Assembly: GCF_903772925.1 (NCBI RefSeq)
Contig: NZ_LR812090.1
Coordinates: 3,965,830 to 4,029,829, forward strand
Length of the DNA: 64,000 nucleotides
Reading direction: 5' to 3'
Source: Alteromonas macleodii
GTDB lineage: Bacteria > Pseudomonadota > Gammaproteobacteria > Enterobacterales > Alteromonadaceae
The notes beneath the pieces are model-generated. The model had not been told where the DNA came from. It did not search any database and worked only from the letters and a program-made list of their open reading frames with translations. This document shows, in pieces, positions 47,320 to 61,346 of the stretch. A program made the translations under genes and the position numbers. Positions within the stretch are counted from its first letter, which is position 1. Every line of letters begins with the position of its first letter.

Positions 47320-48378
47320 CTATGAGGCTTTCTTATTGGCCAACTCGGCTTCTACGCTGGCGAGGCGTGCCTCAATATCTCTTTTCGACTCGACCATTTC
47401 ATTCGCCAGCTCTGCAAGTGACTTTAACTCTGCAAATCCTAACTTTCTGGTATCAATCATTTGATACTGACGCTTGCAGCGATAAAAGAAAGTAAGAAAG
47501 TTAACAAATGCTCGATGAAATGTCGCAAAACTCTTGATCAGTACCAGAATTAACACGACAGAGGTAAGCGCGGCAATACTTAAGCTATAAATACGTACTT
47601 TTGCTTCTTGTTGCTCAATCATGGGTTGCAAGGCGGCATCAACACCTCTTAGCTGAGTTTCAACATTGTGAGCGCTTTGTCTAAATTCTCCACGAAGCCC
47701 TTCATTATGAGTTACGCCATAGGTAGTAAATGCATCAACTAACTGTAAAAGCGCTTCTCTATACTGAACCAAAGTGCCGTTCAGTAAAGCGGTACCGCCA
47801 TTTTCGGCCACTAAACGCTCACTCAACGTCATCATTTGCCTTGCATACACGCCTTCTTGGTTTATCTGATAGTTACGCGTTGCCAGTTGAATATTAGTTA
47901 ACAGTTCACTCGCTTGCGAGTCCTGAGCAAGTTGCCCTTCGTCAAGGGTATTTTCTAACTCGGTAATACGTGCTCTTAAACCATCGTTTTGCGTTAAGCC
48001 GATGCGCTCTTGAAGCGATACAACCTGTCGAAATGTACCGCTATAGGCTTCCATCGAAGATGACAGGCTTTCCACGTCGGCCACAGGCAATCTGTACTCA
48101 TTAAATAAGGGAACAAGCGTTGTTAGCCGCCCTTTAAATTCATAGCTCCGCTCAAGGAACTTGTCGTAATAAACTGTCTCGTGGCGAAGAAGAAAATCTT
48201 TTTCATGTCGTCGCATTTGCAGCAGATCTTGCCCCATTCTTAACAACACATCACGCTGCTGGTGTAAACCTATAAGTCGTTGGGTGAAGTAATGCTGGCT
48301 AACAACTAACACCCCCATACCAATAACGCAAACAAGGGTCATTAAAACTAGGCGAGATTTAATAGAGTCGAACTTCAT
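47320..48378 (-). CDS. Orphan membrane sensor with HBM-type helical domain, no output domain
   Basis: 352 residues. Two membrane helices (about 9-29 and 264-284) enclose a 235-residue helical region with M-R-R-H-E-K-D-F-L-L-R, the signature of the helical bimodular (HBM) sensor domain of chemoreceptors. After the second helix there is only a short coiled-coil tail (about 320-350); no methyl-accepting, kinase or GGDEF domain follows. It may pass signals to a separate partner or be a chemoreceptor that lost its signalling part. It is divergent from the first subtilase gene. Confidence 0.75.
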   Translation of the reverse strand: MKFDSIKSRLVLMTLVCVIGMGVLVVSQHYFTQRLIGLHQQRDVLLRMGQDLLQMRRHEKDFLLRHETVYYDKFLERSYEFKGRLTTLVPLFNEYRLPVADVESLSSSMEAYSGTFRQVVSLQERIGLTQNDGLRARITELENTLDEGQLAQDSQASELLTNIQLATRNYQINQEGVYARQMMTLSERLVAENGGTALLNGTLVQYREALLQLVDAFTTYGVTHNEGLRGEFRQSAHNVETQLRGVDAALQPMIEQQEAKVRIYSLSIAALTSVVLILVLIKSFATFHRAFVNFLTFFYRCKRQYQMIDTRKLGFAELKSLAELANEMVESKRDIEARLASVEAELANKKAS

Positions 48379-48500: not shown

Positions 48501-48546
48501 TTGTAGCATTTTTGAACGTTCTGCTATTTAAAAAAATCTCATAATT

Positions 48547-48562
48547 AGGGTGAAACCCCTAT
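48547..48562 (+). promoter_or_regulatory. Shared 16-bp motif, copy 1 (upstream of first subtilase)
   Basis: AGGGTGAAACCCCTAT, 101 bp before the start codon. Fits AGGGKGAAMYCCCYAT, found also before the second subtilase and the PEP-CTERM gene, in the same orientation relative to the gene each time. Confidence 0.6.
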
Positions 48563-48663
48563 GTTCTGGCCCTTTTCAAAAAGTCACTATTAAGGCGTAC
48601 ATTGCTGCGATGACGTAACCCGATACCAAAGCAAACCGCAGCTTTTAGAATTTGGAGAAGAAT

Positions 48664-51141
48664 ATGAAGAAGTTCGCCCTATCTACCTTAGCTGCTGCAA
48701 TGCTGGCAAGTCCTTCGGCTCACACGCTAGCCGACGCTTACATTGGCTCGCAAATGGCCGATAAACTAGTGTCTCTATCCCCTACAGAATCACTAATGGC
48801 GGTTGTTACGTACGATCAGATGTCGCCCCTTGCCGAATCGCAAATTACCCAACTATTAAACTTGGGGATTACAGAAGGCATTCAATTTAAAAACCTTCCA
48901 ATTATTGGTGTAGTAGCCACTAAGGCTCAAATTGAAGCTATTGCACAATTTGACGGGGTACGCTCAGTATTTGCAAACCGAGAGATGAGCTTATACAACG
49001 CAGACGCGCGTGAAATAACGGGTGTTGCTGATATGCAGGGCGAAGCATTTGCATCGCGCAACAATGTTGAATTTACTGGTAAAGGGTCAACGGTTTTAGT
49101 CATTGACTCTGGTATTGATGCTTCTCACCAAGACCACTTCTTTGGCGATACCGTTGTTGATAATGTGCAAGCGATATTGAACCCAGGCGCGTTGTCTATT
49201 GTTGGCATAACGGGCCCAACGCTATCTAACCAAGTAAATACCGACTTAAACTCAGGTCACGGTACTCACGTAACAGGCACTATTGCAGGTACTGGCGCTA
49301 TGTCTGACGGCAAGCACCGCGGTGCAGCGCCAGATGCTGATATTATTGGTTATGGTTCAGGGGCAGCGGTATTGCTACTTGATACCATAGGCGGCTTTGA
49401 TTATGCGATAAGTAAGCAGTACACCTTTGATAACCCTATCAAAGTCATCAGTAATTCATGGGGCTCAAGCGGCAAGTATGAACCACTTGGCCCTGTATCG
49501 TTGGCAAGCTATAAAGCGCACACAATGGGAATGATTAGTGTCTTCGCGGCGGGTAACAGCGGCCCTGGTGAAGACTCACACAACCCATACGCGCAAATTC
49601 CTTGGGGAATTTCTGTGGGTGCGGGCGATAAGTTTGGCAAACTTGCAGATTTTTCATCTCGTGGTCTTAAAGGCGAGTCTGGTGACTTTACTATGCCCGA
49701 TGGCACTGAGTGGACGTATACAAACGACGTAACCGTTGTCGCTCCAGGTGTAGATATTATCTCTACTCGTGCGGTTTTAAATGCGGCAGCGAATGGTGGT
49801 GATGCAGATATTGATGCCATTGAGCCGCAAAACATTCCTTTTTACACCATGATCTCTGGTACCTCTATGGCAACGCCACATGTTTCAGGCATCATTGCGT
49901 TAATGTTAGAAGCCAACCCGAACCTTGATAACTTAACCATAAAGCGCTTGCTCCAAGAAACTGCTACTAATATGCCTGGTTACGAGCGCTGGGAAGTAGG
50001 TGCAGGTTATGTGAATGCCCGTTCTGCCGTTGCTGCTGCGCTGCTTGAAGATATGGACCATAAGGTGACGGTTAATAACCTTGATTCTAAGACCTTTAAA
50101 GCCAACGCTTTAGTGACCACCAGCGACCGCGTAGAAAACTTCGATGTTTTTTATTCACCGGTAGGCGCGCCTGAAGTCATTGAGTTTGAGGTGGGAACGG
50201 AAGAAGTACTAGTAAAGGCATCTGCCGATAGCTTCGCTAATTTGACCAAGCTAGTCCTTGTAGCGCCAGATGGTACCGAGTACCGCGGCAACCTAACTAC
50301 CCCAGTACTTACGACTACAATGCGTGTTGCTGCACCCGCCATGCCCGGCACTTGGGGAGTGTATGTTTATGGGCTGACGTCGCTTTCCGGTATAGAGGCC
50401 GATCCACTAGGTCTAACTAACGGCCCGGGCTTACCAGAAACATTTAATGTTACTGTCTCGTTTGAAAATAGCGGTGGCTTTGAAGGTATGGATGACGTTG
50501 AAGGCCATCCTCAGCAAAATGCTATTGAATTTGCGGTAAGTGAGCGTCTAATGGACGCCATTAACAGCCGTGGTTTCTCTCCAGATGCGCGCCTAAAACG
50601 TAAAGATTTTGCCCGCTATGCAGTGATGGGTGGTGCTGTAAGACAATACCGCGACCTGCTAGACGAAGAGCGCCCTAACATCGGCTCAGTGCCTGGCTTT
50701 GACAAGGCATTCATAGAGTCAGTAATGGTTAATGGCGGCGCGCTTAAAGATAAACTTCGTACACAAGCCCCAGTACTAAGAAGTGTAGACGGCAGCGCAG
50801 ACCCATTTGCAAGCGTCACTAAGTTAGACATTGCATACTCACTTGTTCAGATGCTAGGACTTGAGGAAGCGGCGCTTAGCTTCGACCCAAGTGCCGATAT
50901 TGTAATTGACTATAATGGTGAGCAATTCGTGCTAGAGGACCAAGACAGTATTCCAGCTGACATGAAAGGCTATGTGCAACTTGCCCTTACTCTGTCTTTG
51001 ATTAACGCTGAGTTCGGCGTAGAGCAAAGCCCTTTTAGCATTACGCCAACAATCACTGCGAGCTTCGCGCCAGATACAGTGATAACCCGAGCACATTATG
51101 CGGTACTTGCGTCACGCTTCTTTGCTCAATACTTTGAATAA
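48664..51141 (+). CDS. Secreted subtilisin-like (S8) protease with SLH-like C-terminal region, copy 1
   Basis: 825 residues from the ATG at 48664 (GGAG 6 bp upstream). Signal peptide to about residue 24; inhibitor-I9-like propeptide about 40-110; peptidase domain about 140-455 with Asp148 (V-I-D-S-G), His199 (G-H-G-T-H) and Ser401 (G-T-S-M-A-T-P), oxyanion Asn298. A beta-rich region follows, then from about 625 a segment with SLH-like pieces: F-S-P-D-A-R-L-K-R-K-D-F-A and I-T-R-A-H-Y-A-V-L. It is paralogous along its whole length to the protein at 58023-60470. Probably acts on extracellular protein, perhaps surface-bound. Confidence 0.9.
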   Translation: MKKFALSTLAAAMLASPSAHTLADAYIGSQMADKLVSLSPTESLMAVVTYDQMSPLAESQITQLLNLGITEGIQFKNLPIIGVVATKAQIEAIAQFDGVRSVFANREMSLYNADAREITGVADMQGEAFASRNNVEFTGKGSTVLVIDSGIDASHQDHFFGDTVVDNVQAILNPGALSIVGITGPTLSNQVNTDLNSGHGTHVTGTIAGTGAMSDGKHRGAAPDADIIGYGSGAAVLLLDTIGGFDYAISKQYTFDNPIKVISNSWGSSGKYEPLGPVSLASYKAHTMGMISVFAAGNSGPGEDSHNPYAQIPWGISVGAGDKFGKLADFSSRGLKGESGDFTMPDGTEWTYTNDVTVVAPGVDIISTRAVLNAAANGGDADIDAIEPQNIPFYTMISGTSMATPHVSGIIALMLEANPNLDNLTIKRLLQETATNMPGYERWEVGAGYVNARSAVAAALLEDMDHKVTVNNLDSKTFKANALVTTSDRVENFDVFYSPVGAPEVIEFEVGTEEVLVKASADSFANLTKLVLVAPDGTEYRGNLTTPVLTTTMRVAAPAMPGTWGVYVYGLTSLSGIEADPLGLTNGPGLPETFNVTVSFENSGGFEGMDDVEGHPQQNAIEFAVSERLMDAINSRGFSPDARLKRKDFARYAVMGGAVRQYRDLLDEERPNIGSVPGFDKAFIESVMVNGGALKDKLRTQAPVLRSVDGSADPFASVTKLDIAYSLVQMLGLEEAALSFDPSADIVIDYNGEQFVLEDQDSIPADMKGYVQLALTLSLINAEFGVEQSPFSITPTITASFAPDTVITRAHYAVLASRFFAQYFE

Positions 51142-51161: not shown

Positions 51162-51196
51162 GGTGCCATTATTTACATTGATAATGGCACCATTTT
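51162..51196 (+). terminator. Terminator-like hairpin after first subtilase
   Basis: Perfect 11-pair stem GGTGCCATTAT / ATAATGGCACC with an eight-base loop, followed by ATTTTA. The tail is not a strong T run. Confidence 0.7.
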
Positions 51197-51233: not shown

Positions 51234-52079
51234 ATGATGTTTACTGCGATGAAATTCAGACAACTCACCACTGTTGTTGCCGCCACTGCATTACTTCTGT
51301 TCTCAACTGCCCAAGCGCAAGTTGTTACTCCTGCGACCTTAACTGTCGATGACAATAAGATTCAGGCGAAGCTTACGCTAACCAGTTTGATTGAAGTCGA
51401 TTTGACTGTTGAGTTCGAAAACAGCATTGGTCTAAATGCTAATAATTTCGACATTACCGCCGAGTTGCTCGACCCTACAGATTTAACGATTACAGACCGT
51501 CTTCCTTCTGCGCTAACAAGCGCTGTTTCAGGCTTTCCGGTTCTTGTTTCAATTTCTCCAAAAACAGACGCAGGATTTGGTTTTGAAGGTTTAGCCATGG
51601 TTGAGTTGTATACCAAAGCTATACACTACACCCCGACCATTCCATGGCGTTTATTCACATCCCATGACGGTGGTCAGTTTGAAGATATCACTACGCTTAC
51701 TTCATCTGGCAGTTTTCGTGCACGCGGAAGCACAGGGCAGTTTTCCGATTTCATCATTTTGCTCGACAACCGACCTTCAACAACAGTTATCAACGATAAG
51801 GTTGCCTCACTCAGCACAACACTGAACGACAACCGCGACAAAATTACAGCGCTTCTAGAAACTGCAATAGATAGCGGTGTTAATGATATACAGTCAGCGC
51901 TGGCGGTAAACGATGACGATGCAGCATTAACTGCGGTTGATAGCCTGATCACACTTGTTGATAGTGCTTCTGGAAGCCAGATTGCCGACGTATGGCGGTC
52001 AAGTGGCGACGTAGTTAATGTGAAAGGCTTAATTCTTACTCAGCTGCAAACATTACGTTTTAGTTTGAGAACGCTGTAA
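51234..52079 (+). CDS. Secreted protein of unknown function
   Basis: 281 residues, not recognised. Signal peptide ends at A-Q-A-Q (about residue 29). Residues 30-180 look beta-rich, with F-T-S-H-D-G-G-Q-F-E-D-I-T-T-L and a G-Q-F-S-D-F-I-I-L-L-D-N-R segment; residues 190-281 are helical with repeated L-S-T-T-L-N-D-N / V-N-D-I-Q-S-A-L pieces. GAGG lies 7 bp before the ATG. It comes directly after the first subtilase, so it may be substrate, partner or part of the same surface layer. An imperfect inverted repeat (arms at 52083 and 52135) follows its stop. Confidence 0.7.
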   Translation: MMFTAMKFRQLTTVVAATALLLFSTAQAQVVTPATLTVDDNKIQAKLTLTSLIEVDLTVEFENSIGLNANNFDITAELLDPTDLTITDRLPSALTSAVSGFPVLVSISPKTDAGFGFEGLAMVELYTKAIHYTPTIPWRLFTSHDGGQFEDITTLTSSGSFRARGSTGQFSDFIILLDNRPSTTVINDKVASLSTTLNDNRDKITALLETAIDSGVNDIQSALAVNDDDAALTAVDSLITLVDSASGSQIADVWRSSGDVVNVKGLILTQLQTLRFSLRTL

Positions 52080-52223: not shown

Positions 52224-53066
52224 ATGCCATTACAGTTTGCCTTTACAGAAAGCAACGGTAGCGTAAGTGAGCACTTGCTTTTTGAGGGCCGTGAATATCA
52301 AGTTGGGCGCGCCGATAGTGCCGACATCATTATTCCTCACCCTCAAGTCTCTCGCTCTCATATCGTCTTGCGCGCCGCAAAACATGCTGACAACGACCAT
52401 ATCTGGCAATTGGACGACACCAGTTCTACAGGGTGCTTCAGCAACGCAGGTATCCCCGTAAAACACCTTACGCTAGACAAACCTCACGTATTGCAACTTG
52501 GTCCAATTCCTTGTGAATTCACGCCTGTCGCATTTAATAATGTAGTTAAACTTGATAGCCAACGTGAATGGCGTAAGCAGCAACTAAAGCGATATCAAAA
52601 CCAGCTACAGCACTGTAATAACAGTACTGCACTTATTAACCTCGCAAGAGAGTGTCTAACTCAGTCGCTTGGGTGCGAACGCGCTTCGCTTATTCTGTTT
52701 GATAAAATAAATAACTATCAGCTTGGTGTAGGTTATGAAGATTGGATGCAGGGCGATGACTTTACAGGCAGCCGCACTATCATCAAACAGTGTATGCAAA
52801 CAAATGCTGTTCGCGCTATCGGTAATATTGTTTGCGACAACACACTTAATAAGCAGCACAGTATAATTAACCACGGTATTCAGGCAGCCGTTTGTGTACC
52901 CGTATGCTTGGATGAAAAGCCTATTGGTGTTTTATATGCTGACTCTGTTCTAGGGCGACGTTACTTCACACAAACGGACATAGAATTTGCCACCTCCTTA
53001 GCAAATATGATTTCCATGCGTTTGTTATTCCACACAATAGAGCATAAACTTTCACTTATAAGCTAG
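52224..53066 (+). CDS. FHA-GAF domain protein
   Basis: 280 residues, no signal or membrane segment. N-terminal FHA domain (about 20-95) with G-R-x-x-x-x-D-I-I-I and S-R-S-H, the residues that hold phosphothreonine. C-terminal GAF domain (about 130-275) with N-L-A-R-E-C, A-A-V-C-V-P-V, G-V-L-Y-A-D-S and F-T-Q-T-D-I-E-F-A. FHA domains usually read out Ser/Thr kinase activity, and a Ser/Thr kinase gene begins 122 bp downstream, so it is a likely substrate or adaptor of that kinase. Output is unknown. Confidence 0.87.
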   Translation: MPLQFAFTESNGSVSEHLLFEGREYQVGRADSADIIIPHPQVSRSHIVLRAAKHADNDHIWQLDDTSSTGCFSNAGIPVKHLTLDKPHVLQLGPIPCEFTPVAFNNVVKLDSQREWRKQQLKRYQNQLQHCNNSTALINLARECLTQSLGCERASLILFDKINNYQLGVGYEDWMQGDDFTGSRTIIKQCMQTNAVRAIGNIVCDNTLNKQHSIINHGIQAAVCVPVCLDEKPIGVLYADSVLGRRYFTQTDIEFATSLANMISMRLLFHTIEHKLSLIS

Positions 53067-53188
53067 AATAAAAGCAATAACGTTTAAGCCAGTCGACCAT
53101 TTGTTATACCTATGGTTAACAGGCCTGCGTGGCGTAAACCGTATTTGAGTTGCTTCGTCGCGTTAATTAGTGAAGTGTGGAGAAGGCT

Positions 53189-56100
53189 TTGAACAGGCCA
53201 GATGTATTCTCGTCGCAAGAAGATTCCCTTAAAACTGAAGCCTTAGCTTTAGGGCCATCTATTGCGCCAAATTCACGCCTAGCTAACCGTTTTCTTATAG
53301 TAGAACAGTTAGGCGGTGGCGCCCAGGCTAGTGTTTATAGTGCGCTTGACGAGCTACTTGATGTGAAAGTGGCGCTGAAAGTGATAGAGGGTGGTGCTAG
53401 CGACCCGGTTAAAATGCAAACTATCCGCAATGAAGTCAATATTGCCAGACAGCTTCAACACCCCAATATCATTCGTGTACATGATGTTTTCTCTGACGGA
53501 GACACTGCGTTCTTTACCATGGCTTTCATAGAAGGGGAGCCTCTATATACGCGCCTTCAAAAGCCTATCACCAAGACCGATTTCGATAAGTGGCAACAAC
53601 AGCTTATTGAGTCCTTACTTGCATGTAAATCCATAGGTATTAAGCATGGCGATATAAAGCCAGACAACATCCTTATTGACCATAATGGAGATATTAAGCT
53701 TATCGACTTTGGCATTGGTCAAAGCGCGGCTTCGGGTGTCCAAACCAGCGGGCATCAACGCTACACAGCGCCTGAAGTTATTCAAACCGGAAAAGCAAGT
53801 GAGCATTCTGACACCTATAGCCTAGGTAAAGTGTTAGAAGACATGTTGGGCTGTGTTGGAAAAGAAGGCGTTGGCATCTCCCATTACTTGTGGTTGAAAA
53901 AGCGCAAAACCTGCATTGCTCAATTAACCCATCACTTACCGGCTAAGAGGCTTTCGCTGGAAGAAGCCCTTAGCGTTAATGGACGAGCCCTTAGCGTTAA
54001 TGCCAGAGCCCTTAGCGTTAACGGTAGCGCCCTCAGCGATAATGGCAGCACTAGCGTAACTAACAAAACCCTTGTTGTGTTTTCTGTAACTGCTTTACTT
54101 GTATTAGTGTTGAGTGCCAGTATTTTTTCCTTCACTTGGTATCAAAAAAGCCATCCAAAACTAGCGACAAATAGCCCTATTCAGCTTTTGGTATTGAACG
54201 ACCCTCAGTATCCGCTTTTAGAAACTATTAACACCTTACTTCGCTACCCTTTGTCTACCCATCCTAATATAGTGTTAGATAACAAAGAACAAACTCAAGC
54301 TTTGATAAGCAATTTAGCGTTATCACCCTTTACAAGTAAAAATGATCGCACTGACTTGGCCGCTACACTTGCAGCTAATAGCGTATTGCTTCTTGATGCT
54401 ACGCCTACCAGTAATAGTGCGTACTTGCTTCACGCTAGCGTACTCAGTATGCCTGCCAATACGCCTATTTTTTCAGTGTCGCACAATGTAGATGCAAACT
54501 CCCTTTCTGAGGATTTGGGGGAATTTTCTAATAAATTAATCCAGCAACTATTTGATGCAGTTGAATCTCAATCCCCCCAACCACTTCCTGATTTACGTTA
54601 TCTAGATGCGTTGGATAGCGCATGGCAAAAGGGTGAAACATTAAATAGTGCAGATGCTATTGATGCCATTATAGCGACAACTCCCGATTACCCCGGAGGG
54701 TGGGTAGCCGATGCCCGCAATAGGATGAATATTGGCGACTATGATGGTGCCAGACAGGCACTGGAAACCTTAACCAGCATTTCAAACTTAGCACCATATT
54801 GGCGGCTACAAAGTGAACTTCTAAGGGCCGAACTTAATGAAGATTTAGCTCTTGCAAAACAATCGATAGATGCACTGGTTTCTCAATTCCCCAACCGACC
54901 AGAATTGCTATCAATGCGGGCCGACATATACCAGTGGGCGGGCGAAGATGCCAAAGCCATGGCCGACTACAAAGCCGCATTAGCCCTCCGCCCTAATAAC
55001 GGACAACTGTGGTTTGAGCTGGCTCGTTTGCAGATCATTAACGGAGATATAGAAGCTGCCACCAGCGATTCGTTAACGCGCGCACTGGTGGCATTTCGAC
55101 AGGCCAAGGATACCCAAGGTGAAAGTTTAGTGATGAATGCCTTTGGTATTGCCTACCTGCGAACGGCCGACAATGTAGCTGCGGCGCGTTATTTTAAAGA
55201 TGCGCTGGCGCTGCGAGATGCGAAAACACAGCCTTCTCAGCGGGCTAAAACCTTAGCAAACTATGCTATTGCTACGTCACTCACAGGCGACTACACCACT
55301 GCTGAAGCGTCGCTAGAAGAAGCAGTAAAGCTACTTCACGATTTAGGTGACTTGGCACAAGAAGCGCATGTGAACGACACTTTAGGCTTTATGTTTGAAG
55401 AACGAGGACAGTTTGCAAGAGCGTTAGATTACTACAAACGAGGCCTTGATATTCGTGTTCAAACCGATGACAAAGTACTTCAGCCCCAAAGCATGAGCAA
55501 CGTGGCCTATATGCACTTTTTAATTGGTGATATTTCACTTGCAGAAATATATTGGCAGCAGGCTGAGATGTTATTTGAGAGAAATGGTGATGAATCTCAC
55601 CTGCTTCGAACCCAACAAAACCTTGCGCAACTGAGTTTAGTCAAAGGTGATAAAAATATCGCTAGCAATTACTTAACGACGGTAGAGGGGCAGTTAGGTA
55701 CACAGCATAATCAGGAAAAGCTCTACAATCACCTTCTGTTCAGCTATTTAAACTTTGCAAACGGAAATTTAAATGAAGCTACACAACATGCCGCAAAGGC
55801 GAAACGGTTAGCACAGAAGTCTGAAGATAGCCGCGCAAAAACAGAAGTTTTACTCTGGGAGGGTGAAATATGCTTACTAACTGCAAACTGGTCGTGCTTA
55901 GAGAAGCGTCTTGTTTCCGTATTGCCCACCATTAGCGAAGAACGTCACGAGCAATTCGCCGTTTATCAATGGTTAACTTTAGGGTTAAAGCATCATCAAG
56001 GTAACCTTAACGATGAGAGCGACAACATCTACAAAACGCTTCTAAATAACGACAATGTTCCCGCGATCACCGAAACAAAGATTTTGCTCGATATGCAGCA

Positions 56101-56395
56101 GCGTCTGTCTTTAGGCGCTTCGAGCACTATCATGGAGAAGCTTAACTCTCTTATTAAACCCACTTATTATCAACAATATTTACAGTGGCTGTATATAAAA
56201 GCGTCGTTAGGTGATGAAGCATCTGTTGAAAAACTCAAGCAAAAGCTTGCGCTATACCCTTCATATTGGCGTAATCACCTATACTATCGCGCTATTCCCG
56301 GCAAAGAAGATACCGTAAATAAGTTAACAACGCAGTGGCTGTCTCAATTACCTGAAAAACAAGCTGGTGACTACAGGAACGCCTATTTTGAGTGA
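53189..56395 (+). CDS. Transmembrane Ser/Thr protein kinase with long TPR region
   Basis: 1068 residues from a TTG at 53189 that has GGAG 6 bp upstream; a GTG four codons earlier lacks one. Kinase domain about 33-260: glycine loop G-G-G-A-Q-A-S-V-Y, Lys64, catalytic Asp155 (H-G-D-I-K-P-D-N) and Asp173 (D-F-G), so active-looking. Next come four seven-residue repeats (260-287), one membrane helix (about 295-316) and a long C-terminal part predicted outside the cytoplasm with TPR repeats (about 500-860). The 3' end overlaps the histidine kinase gene. Likely a sensor of an envelope partner bound by the TPR part. Confidence 0.87.
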   Translation: MNRPDVFSSQEDSLKTEALALGPSIAPNSRLANRFLIVEQLGGGAQASVYSALDELLDVKVALKVIEGGASDPVKMQTIRNEVNIARQLQHPNIIRVHDVFSDGDTAFFTMAFIEGEPLYTRLQKPITKTDFDKWQQQLIESLLACKSIGIKHGDIKPDNILIDHNGDIKLIDFGIGQSAASGVQTSGHQRYTAPEVIQTGKASEHSDTYSLGKVLEDMLGCVGKEGVGISHYLWLKKRKTCIAQLTHHLPAKRLSLEEALSVNGRALSVNARALSVNGSALSDNGSTSVTNKTLVVFSVTALLVLVLSASIFSFTWYQKSHPKLATNSPIQLLVLNDPQYPLLETINTLLRYPLSTHPNIVLDNKEQTQALISNLALSPFTSKNDRTDLAATLAANSVLLLDATPTSNSAYLLHASVLSMPANTPIFSVSHNVDANSLSEDLGEFSNKLIQQLFDAVESQSPQPLPDLRYLDALDSAWQKGETLNSADAIDAIIATTPDYPGGWVADARNRMNIGDYDGARQALETLTSISNLAPYWRLQSELLRAELNEDLALAKQSIDALVSQFPNRPELLSMRADIYQWAGEDAKAMADYKAALALRPNNGQLWFELARLQIINGDIEAATSDSLTRALVAFRQAKDTQGESLVMNAFGIAYLRTADNVAAARYFKDALALRDAKTQPSQRAKTLANYAIATSLTGDYTTAEASLEEAVKLLHDLGDLAQEAHVNDTLGFMFEERGQFARALDYYKRGLDIRVQTDDKVLQPQSMSNVAYMHFLIGDISLAEIYWQQAEMLFERNGDESHLLRTQQNLAQLSLVKGDKNIASNYLTTVEGQLGTQHNQEKLYNHLLFSYLNFANGNLNEATQHAAKAKRLAQKSEDSRAKTEVLLWEGEICLLTANWSCLEKRLVSVLPTISEERHEQFAVYQWLTLGLKHHQGNLNDESDNIYKTLLNNDNVPAITETKILLDMQQRLSLGASSTIMEKLNSLIKPTYYQQYLQWLYIKASLGDEASVEKLKQKLALYPSYWRNHLYYRAIPGKEDTVNKLTTQWLSQLPEKQAGDYRNAYFE
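53966..54049 (+). repeat. Four in-frame 21-bp tandem repeats in the kinase gene
   Basis: Repeats at 53966, 53987, 54008 and 54029, each 21 bp and encoding A-L-S-[VD]-N-[GA]-[RS]. The first three begin GCCCTTAGCGTTAA; the fourth has drifted. They lie between kinase domain and membrane helix, so repeat number would change the juxtamembrane linker by seven residues without a frameshift. Confidence 0.9.
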
Positions 56396-57077
56396 TTTAG
56401 CCAAAGAAATAGAGAGTATTAAGGCACTTCAGGCAACACTTCAAGCGCGACTAGATGCTGATCAGGAAGTACTTCAGCAGCTTGCAAAGCGCCTTTGGGC
56501 TCAGCAAGAGTCGGAAAAAGCTAAGCTTTCAAGAGAGTTGCATGATGGTATTGGGCAGTTGCTTACAGGCCTTACCAGACGACTGCAGGCGCTCTCATCT
56601 TCCTCGCCTGAAATAGAAGCCCTACACGGTATTGCTGAAATGGCGCTAAATGACGTGAGGCAGCTGTCGCGACTTATGAGCCCCACCATTTTAGATGACC
56701 TCGGCCTTAAACCCGCACTGAACTGGCTGTGTCGGAACCTGCTTAGTGGTGAAGATATGGCGTATAACACAGACATAAATCTACCCACAGACCTCTCGAA
56801 AGACATAAGCACCTTGTTATTCAGAATTGCGCAAGAGACATTGGTGAATGCTATAAAACACAGCGAAGCAACACACCTTTCCCTAACGGTTTCTTACCAC
56901 CATAACGTTATTCGTTTAGATATTCTTGATAATGGTGTAGGGTTTGATAGTAGAACAATAGAGCCTGGCATTGGTCTTTCAAGTATTCGCGATAGAGCCG
57001 AAGCGTTCAACGCTACGCTAGAAATAGATTCAGCTGTAGGGCAAGGCACAAGAACAACAGTAACGGTACCTGTATGA
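56367..57077 (+). CDS. Soluble NarL-type sensor histidine kinase (HisKA_3)
   Basis: 236 residues, no membrane segment. N-terminal coiled coil (about 8-55), HisKA_3 dimerisation box with His59 (S-R-E-L-H-D-G-I-G-Q), and HATPase domain (about 145-236) with N-A-I-K-H-S, D-N-G-V-G-F and G-I-G-L-S-S-I-R-D-R. The GTG start overlaps the Ser/Thr kinase end by 29 bp; a TTG at 56388 is an alternative. It lacks a sensor domain, so its input probably comes from another protein, the coupled kinase being the obvious candidate. ATGA overlap with the response regulator gene. Confidence 0.88.
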   Translation: MTTGTPILSDLAKEIESIKALQATLQARLDADQEVLQQLAKRLWAQQESEKAKLSRELHDGIGQLLTGLTRRLQALSSSSPEIEALHGIAEMALNDVRQLSRLMSPTILDDLGLKPALNWLCRNLLSGEDMAYNTDINLPTDLSKDISTLLFRIAQETLVNAIKHSEATHLSLTVSYHHNVIRLDILDNGVGFDSRTIEPGIGLSSIRDRAEAFNATLEIDSAVGQGTRTTVTVPV

Positions 57078-57703
57078 CAATTCGAGTAGTGCTAGCCGAC
57101 GATCATGTACTCATGCGTCAAGGCGTATCTCAAATGCTAAATGCAAACCCAGATATTGATGTGGTCGGAGAATGTGATGACGGTGTTGAGCTTATTGCAG
57201 CGGTGCTAAAACTCTCCCCCGACGTTATTTTGATGGATATTTCTATGCCGCGCATGAGCGGGCTCGTTGCCATTGATAAAATATTGTCCCAGCGCAGTGA
57301 TGCAAAGATACTGGTGCTGTCTATGCACAACGAAGTGGAATATATAGAGGCCATGCGCGACGCGGGCGCAAAGGGCTATATTTTAAAAGAGTCGTCTGGT
57401 GATAGTTTAGTCGACGCGATAAAAAAAGTGGCGGCCAACAAAACCTCTTTTCCCGACGAATTAACCCAGTCATCCAATGAGCAGTGCCAAAAGCACGTAT
57501 CGCCGCTAAGCGTATTGACGCGAAGAGAGCGAGAAGTTTTTTTCTTAGTTGCCGCAGGTAACACCAGTAAGAAGATAGCTGAACTGTTGGACATGAGCCT
57601 TAAAACTGCTGAAAACCATCGGAGTAACATTTATAAGAAGCTCAATTTAAGCAGTTCCGCAGAACTTATCAGAATGGCTGGAAAGGCAGGCTTGCTAGAG
57701 TAG
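57074..57703 (+). CDS. LuxR/NarL-type response regulator
   Basis: 209 residues. Receiver 1-120 with Asp55 (I-L-M-D-I-S-M-P) and Lys105; LuxR-type helix-turn-helix about 145-205 (L-T-R-R-E-R-E-V-F, T-S-K-K-I-A-E-L-L-D-M-S-L-K-T-A-E-N-H). Start overlaps the histidine kinase stop as ATGA, so the two are a cognate pair. Its targets are unknown; the shared 16-bp motif before the flanking subtilase genes is a candidate site. Confidence 0.92.
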   Translation: MTIRVVLADDHVLMRQGVSQMLNANPDIDVVGECDDGVELIAAVLKLSPDVILMDISMPRMSGLVAIDKILSQRSDAKILVLSMHNEVEYIEAMRDAGAKGYILKESSGDSLVDAIKKVAANKTSFPDELTQSSNEQCQKHVSPLSVLTRREREVFFLVAAGNTSKKIAELLDMSLKTAENHRSNIYKKLNLSSSAELIRMAGKAGLLE

Positions 57704-58022: not shown

Positions 58023-60470
58023 CTAAAGTTCTGCGTATTGCGTTAGGATAAACGCAGCTTCGCCTCGTGATACGCCATCTTGTGGTTTAAAGAAGGCTTT
58101 AAGTGTAGGCTGTAGGTCAAATGGACCTTGCTCTACTTTCACTTCTACCTGCATTATCCCTGCAGCTAAAGCTTGTTGAACATAGCCGCGATACTCAGGT
58201 GCAATTGCGTCTGTGTCTTCAACTTCCACCGCTTCACCCAGCACGATAGCGATAACTTTTTCAGAATCAAAGCTGTTCGCGGCATCTTCAAGGCCTAATG
58301 CTTGAACCATTGAGTACGCCATTTCTTCTTTGCTTACCTGCATGTTGCTACCAAAGAAGTCGCCGTCAACTTGCATTACAGGTTGTGTATTCATTTCTAA
58401 ATCTCCCAACACGGCACCTGTCGCTGTGGCAGAGTTTACCGCTGCAGCATTTTCTGCACTCACATCGGTGTAGTTAACTGTGTTACCGTCGTTGGTTTGA
58501 CGAAGGTTAGCGCTAAGCGCTAGCGTATCAGCAAGCTCTACTCGAGTAAGTGGCGCGTCTGGCGCAAAGCCACTTTCTTTTGCATCCATTAGCTCATTTG
58601 CTACTACGTACTCAATAAATGGTTTTGCAGGGTGACCCACTGCATCATCAATACCCGTATAGCCTGATGTTACTAATAAGCGAATATTCACATCGTTAGT
58701 GCCGGGAATACCCACACCGTTTGTAACACCTAGTGGGTCAACTGACACACCACTAATGCTACCAATACCTCGGCTGTATAGTTTCCATGTACCCGGCATA
58801 CCCGGAGCAGCTGTACCAACAGAAGAACCTAAAACAGGTAGGCCAATGCCAGAACCGTAGGTATTTCCCGCCGGGTCTTCTAATACGAACGCTGTTGCCG
58901 TTTCAATTGACGCGCTTGCCACCACCATAGATACGTCAGGCGTTACATCAAACTCTTCTACTGGTGACTCACCTACAGGAAGATAAGTTGTAGGTAGCGT
59001 AAAGCTATCGCCTTCAGCAACGTTAGCAAATGCGTTAAATTCGCGATTTTTCTTCACGGTATCGCCGAATACTTCTTCACCCTCAAGCACTGCAGTTACC
59101 GCAGCATAGGCGTTAACATAACCTGCACCCACTTCCCACTCGTCCATACCAGCCATCGGCGTTGCCGTTTCCTGGAGAATGCGCTTCACATCTTCCCACT
59201 GAAGGTTTGGATTCGCTTCTAGCATTAGTGCAACAATACCTGACACGTGCGGTGCAGCCATTGAAGTACCGCTAGATACGGTATAAAACGGCAAGTGCTG
59301 TGGCTCAATCATTTCAGCGTCATCAGCCGCGCTTAAGCCGCCTAAGCTAGATAGTGAAGCACGGGCAGAAATAACGTCTACACCAGGAGCCGTTACGGTA
59401 GGACGGTCTTCCCACGTGAACACTTCACCATCAACAACCGCTTGTCCGCCTTTTCCGTCGACACCGCGAGAACTAAAGTCAGCTAGCTCGCCCTGCTTGT
59501 TGCCCGCAGCCACTGTAATTACCCAAGGTGCTTTTTTAAAGTTACCGGTAATTGTCGATTCGCCTGGACCTGAGTTACCTGCCGAGAACACGGTAATAAT
59601 ACCGTTGTCTGCCAGTGCTTTGGTTACAACGTTAGTTGGGTCGTCTGGGTTGAAGTCTGTACCTACATCACCTGTGTTACCGAACGAGTTAGAGATAACA
59701 CGAATGTTGTAATCGAACTGGTGTGTTAACGCGTAGTCGAAGCCACCGATGGTATCTAAAATGAATAGACCTGCGCCCGAGCCATAACCAATGATGTCTG
59801 CACCAGGCGCTACACCTGCATGTAAGCCACCACTCTTGGCGCCGTTACCGCCTACTGTGCCAGCTACGTGTGTTCCGTGACCGCCTAGAATATCAGTGTT
59901 AGATACGTTTTCTTGGTATGTAATCGGCAAAATGCCGCTATAGCTATTTAGGTTCACCTGCGCTAGTACGTTTTGTACAACATGATCAGGGAATGCTAAA
60001 TCGCCATGTGTGCCATCAACACCCGAGTCGTTTACTACTACGCCAATGCCTTTACCTGATACTGGCATGCCGTTAATGCGAATATCGCGATCAGCCTGTA
60101 GTGCCTGTACGCCGGTAATTTGGGTAGACTCATGGTTCTCTAGTTCTAGCGGGTCGTTGTTCCACACTGACACCACGTCATCGCGCTGATAAAGTGCTTC
60201 GACTTGCTGTTTGTTGGCTAACACACCAACAATAGGCACGTTACGTAGGCTAACACCGCCAGTGATACCTAACGATTCAAGTGCTGTAATTTGTTCTGTT
60301 GTGGCAGGTCCCTTACCTTCAAATGTAACAATAACTTGTTGTAGTTCTAGTGGCGAAGCAGCAAGTGCGTCGGCTAATGTTTTATCGAAAGTTTTTGCAT
60401 TCACCATGCTCGCTGGTAGGGCACAAGCAATAGCAACTGATAATACTGTTTTGTTATTAAGGAACTTCAT
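58023..60470 (-). CDS. Secreted subtilisin-like (S8) protease with SLH-like C-terminal region, copy 2
   Basis: 815 residues from the ATG at 60470 (GAGG 6 bp upstream; the frame opens 17 codons earlier). Signal peptide to about residue 25, I9-like propeptide about 40-108, catalytic Asp148 (V-N-D-S-G), His198 (G-H-G-T-H) and Ser403 (G-T-S-M-A-A-P). SLH-like pieces near the end: F-A-P-D-A-P-L-T-R-V-E-L-A and V-S-R-G-E-A-A-F-I-L. Same domain order as the protein at 48664-51141, from which it has clearly diverged. Transcribed toward the response regulator. Carries the shared 16-bp motif 55 bp before its start. Confidence 0.9.
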   Translation of the reverse strand: MKFLNNKTVLSVAIACALPASMVNAKTFDKTLADALAASPLELQQVIVTFEGKGPATTEQITALESLGITGGVSLRNVPIVGVLANKQQVEALYQRDDVVSVWNNDPLELENHESTQITGVQALQADRDIRINGMPVSGKGIGVVVNDSGVDGTHGDLAFPDHVVQNVLAQVNLNSYSGILPITYQENVSNTDILGGHGTHVAGTVGGNGAKSGGLHAGVAPGADIIGYGSGAGLFILDTIGGFDYALTHQFDYNIRVISNSFGNTGDVGTDFNPDDPTNVVTKALADNGIITVFSAGNSGPGESTITGNFKKAPWVITVAAGNKQGELADFSSRGVDGKGGQAVVDGEVFTWEDRPTVTAPGVDVISARASLSSLGGLSAADDAEMIEPQHLPFYTVSSGTSMAAPHVSGIVALMLEANPNLQWEDVKRILQETATPMAGMDEWEVGAGYVNAYAAVTAVLEGEEVFGDTVKKNREFNAFANVAEGDSFTLPTTYLPVGESPVEEFDVTPDVSMVVASASIETATAFVLEDPAGNTYGSGIGLPVLGSSVGTAAPGMPGTWKLYSRGIGSISGVSVDPLGVTNGVGIPGTNDVNIRLLVTSGYTGIDDAVGHPAKPFIEYVVANELMDAKESGFAPDAPLTRVELADTLALSANLRQTNDGNTVNYTDVSAENAAAVNSATATGAVLGDLEMNTQPVMQVDGDFFGSNMQVSKEEMAYSMVQALGLEDAANSFDSEKVIAIVLGEAVEVEDTDAIAPEYRGYVQQALAAGIMQVEVKVEQGPFDLQPTLKAFFKPQDGVSRGEAAFILTQYAEL

Positions 60471-60525
60471 AATACACCTCTCTTTGAGTACACCTTGAGT
60501 ATTTAACATCCCAAGCGGCAAAACT

Positions 60526-60541
60526 ATGGGGGGTTCCCCCT
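60526..60541 (-). promoter_or_regulatory. Shared 16-bp motif, copy 2 (upstream of second subtilase)
   Basis: On the minus strand AGGGGGAACCCCCCAT, 55 bp before the start codon. Its core GGGGG-AA-CCCCC is nearly self-complementary. Same consensus as at 48547 and 61316. Confidence 0.6.
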
Positions 60542-60592
60542 ATTCGAAGTGATTTATAAAGCACATTAAAAACAAAAAGTTAGAACGAAAAA

Positions 60593-60701: not shown

Positions 60702-61256
60702 TTACTGTTTGCGCTTCCTCATTGAGGTAAACGCGAACAAAACTAGCATTGCTGTAGCGAAGGAAGCAGGTTCACTCACTTGTGTTGAGCCATTGTTAGA
60801 GCCATCATTAGGCTCGACAGTTTTAACTAATTGAAACAAGCCGCCCGCACAGCGGTCGCCATTTTCAAAGAAAACACAAGTATCTGTTGATCCTAAACCG
60901 GCTAAACCTGAACTAATAGTAAACTCGTAAGGAACGCTAGCGTCCTCGATAAAAAACTGAAAACCTTCGCCGCTGTCATCACCAAATACACCATCATCTA
61001 TATCAACTATCGCAAAGTCAGCAATGTCGTCTTCTAGAATACTGTAGATGTCGCCATTAAACTCTAACTGAAAGACAAACGATAACCATGTGTTCATATT
61101 GAACTGGGTTTCGTTTTCATCGAAAGTGATTTGCCCAATCAAACTGGTTTCGTCAGCTTCGTTACCTAACACTAATCGAGTGAAATCATAGGTGATTACG
61201 CCAGCGAAAGAGGATGATGTAAAAAAGATAAAAAATGCTGCAAGTAACGTTCTCAT
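60702..61256 (-). CDS. PEP-CTERM domain secreted protein
   Basis: 184 residues. Signal peptide ends at S-F-A-G (about residue 18). The C-terminus has the exosortase sorting pattern: V-S-E-P-A-S, a hydrophobic helix, then R-K-R-K-Q; the first proline of the usual V-P-E-P is replaced by serine. The body is acidic with one cysteine pair (about 135 and 143). Such proteins are sorted to the surface by exosortase, which is not in this window. It shares the 16-bp upstream motif with both subtilases, so it may belong to the same surface system. Confidence 0.82.
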   Translation of the reverse strand: MRTLLAAFFIFFTSSSFAGVITYDFTRLVLGNEADETSLIGQITFDENETQFNMNTWLSFVFQLEFNGDIYSILEDDIADFAIVDIDDGVFGDDSGEGFQFFIEDASVPYEFTISSGLAGLGSTDTCVFFENGDRCAGGLFQLVKTVEPNDGSNNGSTQVSEPASFATAMLVLFAFTSMRKRKQ

Positions 61257-61302: not shown

Positions 61303-61346
61303 GCATTGAATACAAATAGGGAGTTCCCCCTAGTTGTATTCAATGC
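61303..61346. promoter_or_regulatory. 44-bp dyad enclosing the 16-bp motif, copy 3 (upstream of PEP-CTERM gene)
   Basis: The minus-strand motif AGGGGGAACTCCCTAT (61316-61331) is flanked by perfect 13-base arms GCATTGAATACAA (61303-61315) and TTGTATTCAATGC (61334-61346). It lies 47 bp upstream of the PEP-CTERM start and 19 bp past the ankyrin gene stop, so it could be operator, terminator hairpin, or both. Confidence 0.65.

Follow-up and report, generated by a model that had tools for sequence, protein, structure and literature searches.

Which protein does the sensing for a histidine kinase that lacks a sensor? The question is raised by a signalling locus of Alteromonas macleodii (contig NZ_LR812090.1, assembly GCF_903772925.1), which we analysed within a stretch of 64,000 nucleotides (nt), here called the window, from a 4.67 Mb, single-contig genome labelled G000. 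An original prediction, made from the sequence of the window, had described four genes at 52224..57703, encoding an FHA-GAF protein, a transmembrane Ser/Thr kinase with TPR repeats, a histidine kinase and a LuxR-type regulator, as one signalling cassette that joins two phosphorylation systems. Comparison across genomes makes a very strong case that five genes, the fifth encoding a DUF6689 protein, form one conserved signalling cassette. We slightly favour reading this cassette as an envelope-to-DNA signalling unit in which the Ser/Thr kinase would stand in for the sensor that the two-component system lacks.

Organization of the locus

All four of the genes described earlier are present as open frames on the + strand, and the Ser/Thr kinase, histidine kinase and regulator genes do overlap in series, by 29 nt and then by 4 nt. 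An in-frame TTG at 56388 provides an alternative start for the histidine kinase, with which the overlap with the kinase gene would be 8 nt; TTG-type starts were likewise chosen by script for the histidine kinase genes of several relatives. The FHA-GAF gene precedes the kinase gene as proposed, but it does not adjoin it directly, as 110 nt separate the two. Similarly, the idea of a single cassette stands but its boundaries do not, since the unit extends past 52224..57703 to the DUF6689 gene and to two subtilase genes, S8a and S8b:

48652..51141, + strand: S8a, a secreted subtilase (Peptidase_S8 1.3e-40; C-terminal SLH-like match 2.7e-5)
51234..52079, + strand: DUF6689 protein with a signal-peptide-like start (PF20396 1.8e-71)
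52224..53066, + strand: FHA-GAF protein, presumed cytoplasmic adaptor (Pfam FHA 3e-8, GAF 7e-12)
53177..56395, + strand: receptor-type Ser/Thr kinase (Pfam Pkinase 1e-39, TPR)
56367..57077, + strand: histidine kinase (Pfam HisKA_3 1.6e-8, HATPase_c)
57074..57703, + strand: NarL/LuxR-type response regulator (Pfam Response_reg, GerE)
58023..60521, - strand: S8b, a second secreted subtilase, convergent with the cassette (Peptidase_S8 1.8e-40, SLH 2.2e-11)

Conservation and loss of the cassette

The original prediction had named a conserved gene order in other genomes as a check on the cassette, and the separation of the genes in relatives as grounds for giving it up. The genes stay together in relatives: the order DUF6689, FHA-GAF, Ser/Thr kinase, histidine kinase, regulator is kept in 63 of 66 DUF6689 loci (26/26 in the genus, 13/13 outside the genus, in two families of the same order, and 24/27 in a second order), and the only orphan is a degenerate FHA-GAF gene, the sole cassette remnant in genome G002. 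In a first genus sample, a Ser/Thr kinase orthologue was found in 15 of 35 other genomes, all 15 of which carry the five genes with order and strand unchanged, although with broken frames in G025. A scan of named genomes, which overlaps with this sample, yielded 23 loci with the five genes in every one, including loci from Aliiglaciecola, Marisediminitalea, Aestuariibacter and a Paraglaciecola metagenome-assembled genome. Across 59 genus genomes, DUF6689 is present in 26; these also give a strong FHA-GAF match, to which G002 adds a weak one. S8b (E 1e-60 or better) is found in 25 of the 59, every one a cassette carrier, and in all carriers but G031 (25/26) secreted subtilases flank the cassette.

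Beyond the genus, DUF6689 was detected in 17 of 335 genomes order-wide, 16 of them above the cut-off; the 13 above-cut-off genomes outside the genus, which come from two families, each carry the ordered five-gene set with at least one adjacent subtilase match. The five genes are also present in G447, a genome of the second order, where the best local matches to the window proteins are 26-38% identical. The second order, probably Lysobacterales since named DUF6689 proteins of that branch are labelled Lysobacterales and Dokdonella, has DUF6689 in 26 of 250 genomes (27 loci). Its 24 complete loci include one whose regulator is cut at a contig end, and the exceptions are two contig-end loci, which stop after three genes and after one gene, and a DUF6689 fragment without a cassette. 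A subtilase match lies close by in 13 of these 27 loci; ten flanking proteins taken from nine subtilase-less loci comprise four FG-GAP repeat proteins, one Calx-beta protein of 2005 residues, one cytochrome-like protein and four proteins without a Pfam match. The Ser/Thr kinase and histidine kinase genes overlap in 14/14 unbroken genus loci and 22/24 second-order loci, and identity between the cassette proteins of the two orders is about 19-43%.

Loss of the cassette can also be traced. The non-carrier genome G080 (locus L215) has the left-flank gene, then the palindrome-bearing S8a promoter and 52 S8a codons, and directly after them the ankyrin-repeat gene that lies beyond S8b in the window, with a catalase-like gene also at this site; the arrangement is evidently the scar of a whole-block deletion of the cassette. 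Damaged frames were seen in two carriers, as a single in-frame stop within the FHA-GAF gene of G007 (L041) and as cassette genes split into several frames in G025 (L048); in neither case are sequencing error and decay distinguished.

The Ser/Thr kinase and the FHA-GAF protein

The kinase domain occupies about residues 37-225 and is followed by a single hydrophobic membrane segment at residues 293-322. Past this segment, the structure model (mean predicted local distance difference test score, pLDDT, 85.6) shows ~750 residues arranged as an alpha/beta domain (about 335-461) and a long TPR solenoid (about 474-1070), a region that we presume to be periplasmic. The Hanks-type catalytic residues K68, E86, D159, N164 and D177 are invariant in 15/15 aligned orthologues and a P-loop is present, while H-x-D-x-K-P-x-N and DFG were found in all 36 Ser/Thr kinases surveyed, three of which have no segment above the hydrophobicity threshold. 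In place of HRD, the window kinase and the 14 genus relatives surveyed have HGD. Here and below, the kinase and FHA alignments leave aside L048, the G025 locus with broken frames, and the survey of 36 loci leaves aside L048, L123, L124, L131, L134, L140 and L143, whose frames are broken, cut or overlong. A Pfam search of the kinase gave no match to PASTA repeats, TPR being present instead, and the PknB_PASTA_kin model reached 135 bits against a cut-off of 450.

The N-terminal tail of the kinase is variable and disordered in the model (pLDDT about 23-54), and carries a short conserved motif:

53234..53245, + strand: tail motif Thr20-Glu-Ala-Leu23, a candidate at which the FHA domain would dock on phosphothreonine (conservation in orthologues)

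Thr20 and Leu23 are invariant in 15/15 orthologues and at least 90% conserved among 35. Since FHA domains select phosphothreonine peptides mostly via the +3 residue, Thr-x-x-Leu would be a natural, and likely, docking site for the neighbouring FHA-GAF protein. Second-order tails have a recurrent, though not universal, T-x-T-G-like motif. In the FHA domain itself, the core residues G28, R29, S43 and H46 (Gly-Arg, Ser-x-x-His) are invariant in 14/14 sequences, from an alignment that also leaves aside L041 with its in-frame stop, and in 20/20 across both orders.

Between the kinase domain and the membrane segment, at about residues 268-292, lies a short tandem repeat of ALSVNGR-like units, which is longer in the window strain than in 14 aligned relatives.

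The histidine kinase and the response regulator

The histidine kinase is sensor-less, as had been proposed: it has neither a further Pfam domain nor a membrane segment, and no hydrophobic segment was found in any of the 36 histidine kinases scanned, which are 229-264 residues long. Its domains and those of the regulator are of the NarL/DegS type, with HisKA_3, HATPase_c and the phospho-accepting His in the one, and a receiver Asp and a GerE helix-turn-helix in the other. The pairing of a soluble histidine kinase with a NarL-type regulator also matches the layout of YbdM-DegS, and the missing sensor does not exclude the DegS branch because DegS is itself cytosolic. H59, the phospho-accepting residue, is invariant in 16/16 sequences and in 20/20 across both orders, and the exact LHDxxGQ string is missing in one of the 36 surveyed. 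In the regulator, D55 and K177, T178, E180, N181, H182 and R183 are invariant in 20/20 sequences across both orders; we take the last six to lie within the recognition helix. In L123 and L124 the histidine kinase frame continues over the regulator gene, to 519 and 494 residues.

A palindrome before the subtilase genes

The cassette probably controls the secreted subtilases through a predicted palindrome regulon, for which the comparative evidence is good. We searched for palindromes, unsupervised, in 41 upstream regions from 20 loci, 40 of them before subtilases and one before the window DUF6689 gene (L159 and L162 entered twice, one gene answering for both subtilases). The search returned TAGGGG-N4-CCCCTA with a log-likelihood of 327, compared with 2.3, -5.2 and 4.3 in three shuffles. 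Half-site scores of 9 or 10 of 10 were reached in 37/41 regions and in 3/1000 shuffled regions, an uneven comparison in that regions were scored at spacings 14-18 and shuffles at 16 only; in addition, related promoters share ancestry, which the shuffles do not model. A single-spacing repeat gave scores of at least 9 of 10 in 16/24 S8a and 20/24 S8b regions. Among control genes of the same loci, scores of at least 9 occurred in 5/40, all five being the gene divergent from S8a with which it shares its upstream region; once these S8a-shared regions are set aside, 0/35 control regions have the palindrome.

The window contains three such palindromes, the third before a gene that lies beyond S8b:

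48546..48561, no strand: palindrome TAGGGTGAAACCCCTA before S8a, probable regulator site (motif search)
60527..60542, no strand: palindrome TAGGGGGAACCCCCCA (read on the - strand) before S8b (motif search)
60702..61256, - strand: 184-residue protein with a signal-peptide-like start (no Pfam match)
61317..61332, no strand: palindrome TAGGGAGTTCCCCCTA, about 60 nt upstream of the 60702-61256 gene (window and genus scans)

Each differs from the consensus by one mismatch. Three window matches at two mismatches were reached in 9/100 shuffles, and because three such matches are not rare the case for the window palindromes rests on their position and conservation. Distances from palindrome to called start range from about 20 to 260 nt. 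Upstream regions homologous to that of the 60702-61256 gene scored at least 8 of 10 in 4/4 tested, and its protein is possibly a further regulon member. Promoter prediction in the region was uninformative, with 12 found against 20 expected.

An independent search of 47 upstream regions of the second order, among which several divergent regions appear twice and from which L123 and L124 were left out as near-duplicates of L122, gave TGGGGGAnnTCCCCCA with a log-likelihood of 236, against 24-36 in six shuffles. The fitted model scored over 10 in 12/15 subtilase regions and 5/8 regions of other secreted genes. Since the recognition-helix core of the regulator is invariant, the palindrome is probably the regulator's site.

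Away from the cassette, sites precede a third subtilase (in G035 and G075) and giant surface proteins, and for a second giant surface gene the carriers G000 and G027 have a site, the non-carrier G021 none. Matches to the exact pattern numbered 75 in carriers, against 21 for a reversed control pattern, and 9 against 20 in non-carriers; self-palindromic matches are counted on both strands here, and the S8a site makes up much of the carrier excess. Among 20 off-cassette stretches, five sites fall inside reading frames (L204, L216, L220, L221, L222) and look chance-like. We dropped the idea that the palindrome is exclusive to carriers, as the exact pattern occurs in 25/26 carriers but also in 8/33 non-carriers.

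Genome G000 has two giant surface-protein genes, with open frames of 5754 and 6225 residues. The first (L203, G000:C1:4135000-4143000) carries the site TAGGGGTAACTCCCTA roughly 256 nt ahead of its start, and the second (G000:C1:1080095-1080460) has a weaker related site.

A proposed pathway and its alternatives

In the pathway that we propose, the alpha/beta and TPR region of the Ser/Thr kinase would read the state of the envelope, perhaps via secreted DUF6689, and the activated kinase domains would phosphorylate each other, tail Thr20 included. The original prediction had the TPR region sense a surface protein, for which the adjacent secreted DUF6689 protein, absent from that prediction along with the subtilases and the palindrome, would be the obvious candidate. 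The FHA domain would then dock on phospho-Thr20, with the GAF domain bringing in a soluble signal, and either the Ser/Thr kinase or the FHA-GAF protein would switch the soluble histidine kinase. The histidine kinase would phosphorylate the regulator, as expected from their families and gene overlap, and the regulator, with comparative support, would bind TAGGGG-N4-CCCCTA to control the flanking subtilases, together with other surface proteins in certain genomes. The central relay, from Ser/Thr kinase to histidine kinase, is plausible on circumstantial grounds. We give about an even chance to the fuller proposal that a receptor Ser/Thr kinase, read by FHA-GAF, replaces the sensor of the histidine kinase, converting phosphothreonine to His-Asp signalling within a dedicated operon that has DUF6689 as envelope partner and its own regulon of subtilases and surface proteins.

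Several observations weigh against this pathway. The Pfam scan recognised no phosphatase gene in the cassette. The tail motif, counted in the loose form T-x-x-[LIVMD] and without a chance control, is absent from 11/103 kinase tails of a redundant set. The Asn of the Asn-Gly loop is part of the phosphothreonine-binding domain of FHA proteins; it is replaced by Thr or Ser in all 5 Alteromonadaceae rows, including the window, and retained in the other 15/20 aligned rows. No Ser or Thr is conserved between the orders in the N-terminal coil of the histidine kinase, and the nearest conserved one, T67 (Ser or Thr in 19/20), comes after His59. Turning to the promoters, only 15/24 second-order DUF6689 regions score above 10, some regions having no good site, and S8a of the Idiomarina-like loci fits the palindrome worse, with 3/11 at 9 or more. 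Finally, with 19 of 21 adhesin matches examined, a related palindrome (at least 9 of 12) precedes a giant adhesin in 10/11 carriers and also in 6/8 non-carriers.

Because the coil holds no conserved DegS-like Ser/Thr, the complex may instead work as a scaffold, a possible if doubtful reading in which the Ser/Thr kinase phosphorylates its own tail, and perhaps FHA-GAF, after which the complex so formed would recruit or free the histidine kinase or the regulator through contact alone. Docking of this kind would fit the invariant FHA Arg and Ser, the conserved tail Thr-x-x-Leu and, throughout the loci read, the FHA-GAF gene as immediate upstream neighbour of the kinase gene. Phospho-sites may, however, shift position between orders, and the precedents, as far as the consulted extracts of the sources go, are of direct phosphorylation of histidine kinases or regulators (PMC3033389, PMC12189002).

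The adhesin promoters bear on the last step of the pathway, where the palindrome might belong to another regulator of surface proteins or form an RNA hairpin in the 5' leader, rather than being the site of the cassette regulator. This is unlikely in our view: although related palindromes stand at the giant-adhesin promoters of 6/8 non-carriers tested, and the S8b and 60702-61256 sites also score as terminator-like hairpins, a similar palindrome is found independently beside the second-order cassette, where it also precedes DUF6689 and occurs in shared divergent regions. Moreover, the variable distance from site to start (about 20 to 260 nt), the conserved recognition-helix core and the palindrome-free control regions (0/35) of the same loci all favour the cassette regulator.

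Improbable, too, is a third arrangement, in which the histidine kinase-regulator and Ser/Thr kinase-FHA pairs are two parallel branches with separate signals and targets that share an operon for surface protein production. Co-transcription alone would suffice for the gene order, and the GAF and TPR regions could each take an input of their own; against this, the set is intact across two orders despite about 19-43% identity, the Ser/Thr kinase-histidine kinase gene overlap recurs in 14/14 and 22/24 loci, and the sensor-less histidine kinase is left unexplained. That the locus serves in defence against phages or in the control of type VI secretion is hardly credible: defence-kinase models of PADLOC do hit the kinase domain (5.8e-43 at best), a subtilase model matches S8a (1e-27) and S8b (1.7e-14) and a CARF-fusion model the regulator (1.4e-7), but the listed kinase matches (25/35; PD-T4-6, MADS) span only residues about 28-262, the folds behind the subtilase and regulator matches are very common, DUF6689, FHA-GAF and the histidine kinase have no PADLOC match, and the identified neighbours are secreted proteases and FG-GAP proteins.

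Comparison with known systems

The pathway in which the Ser/Thr kinase serves as sensor has partial counterparts. DegS is a HisKA_3 kinase and DegU a NarL-type regulator, and the pair controls secreted proteases; we know of no conserved operon that joins DegS-DegU with a Ser/Thr kinase. In Bacillus subtilis, one report links DegS-DegU with the Hanks kinases YbdM and YabT, and describes how YbdM phosphorylates soluble DegS on Ser76 and stimulates phosphotransfer to DegU (PMC3033389). DegS-DegU lacks the TPR receptor, FHA-GAF protein and DUF6689 partner, all three of which are found in the cassette.

CroS and NarS both have sensors of their own. In IreK-CroS and PknL-NarS, a Ser/Thr kinase phosphorylates the histidine kinase and raises its activity, and, in contrast to the cassette, the extract consulted describes neither system as one operon or as having an FHA-GAF adaptor (PMC12189002). 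Like the PASTA kinases PknB, StkP and Stk1, the cassette kinase would combine a cytoplasmic Hanks kinase, one membrane segment and an outer sensing region, but it has the TPR and alpha/beta region where they have PASTA, and its cassette includes a two-component pair. PknB has the FHA partner GarA, and in PpkA-Fha1 of type VI secretion a Ser/Thr kinase likewise acts with an FHA protein (PMC6213207). Unlike PpkA-Fha1, the cassette has no secretion apparatus identified beside it, and its last gene encodes a transcription factor. Cyanobacterial HstK-type fusions join Ser/Thr and histidine kinases in one signalling unit, whereas the cassette is made of separate proteins and adds FHA-GAF and secreted DUF6689.

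DUF6689 and the flanking genes

The AlphaFold2 model of the DUF6689 protein (mean pLDDT 92.9) consists of a beta-sandwich and a C-terminal helical bundle, the beta-sandwich resembling GAIN and ZU5 domains to a middling degree. As it is encoded next to a receptor kinase, the protein may be an envelope ligand, chaperone or co-receptor.

S8a and S8b share about 43% identity, each with an SLH match, and the Asp, His and Ser motifs are present in S8a. The probable start of S8a is the ATG at 48664, judging from a signal-peptide-like stretch, and that of S8b is probably the ATG at 60470. In most of the Idiomarina-like loci (L160-L170) an extra subtilase match lies upstream of S8a, Pfam-confirmed in L160. 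One further feature stands between S8a and the cassette:

51162..51191, + strand: terminator-like hairpin of 12 pairs between S8a and DUF6689 (pattern scan)

The hairpin is possibly an attenuator, which would allow an excess of S8a over the signalling genes; it is weak evidence because a scan of the region for terminator-like hairpins found 16, with 14 expected in shuffles.

Divergent from S8a, the gene at 47320-48378 encodes a protein of 352 residues that begins with a hydrophobic N-terminal stretch and matches no Pfam family, and adjoins the cassette in many, not all, genus loci. The protein encoded at 60702-61256 varies between species, has its own palindrome and ends in a PEP-CTERM-like tail.

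Implications

The cassette is real and conserved, and within a small literature search it is undescribed; the name DUF6689 was not met in papers in that search. Bacterial Ser/Thr kinases are known to cross-talk with two-component systems mostly by phosphorylation between separately encoded systems. Here, both systems are fixed in one operon across two orders, and no other input to the histidine kinase is apparent, so that the direction, site and logic of the relay become testable in one small module that comes with a predicted output promoter. The locus also offers a first functional context for DUF6689, and a prediction of how the marine bacteria that carry it control their secreted subtilases.

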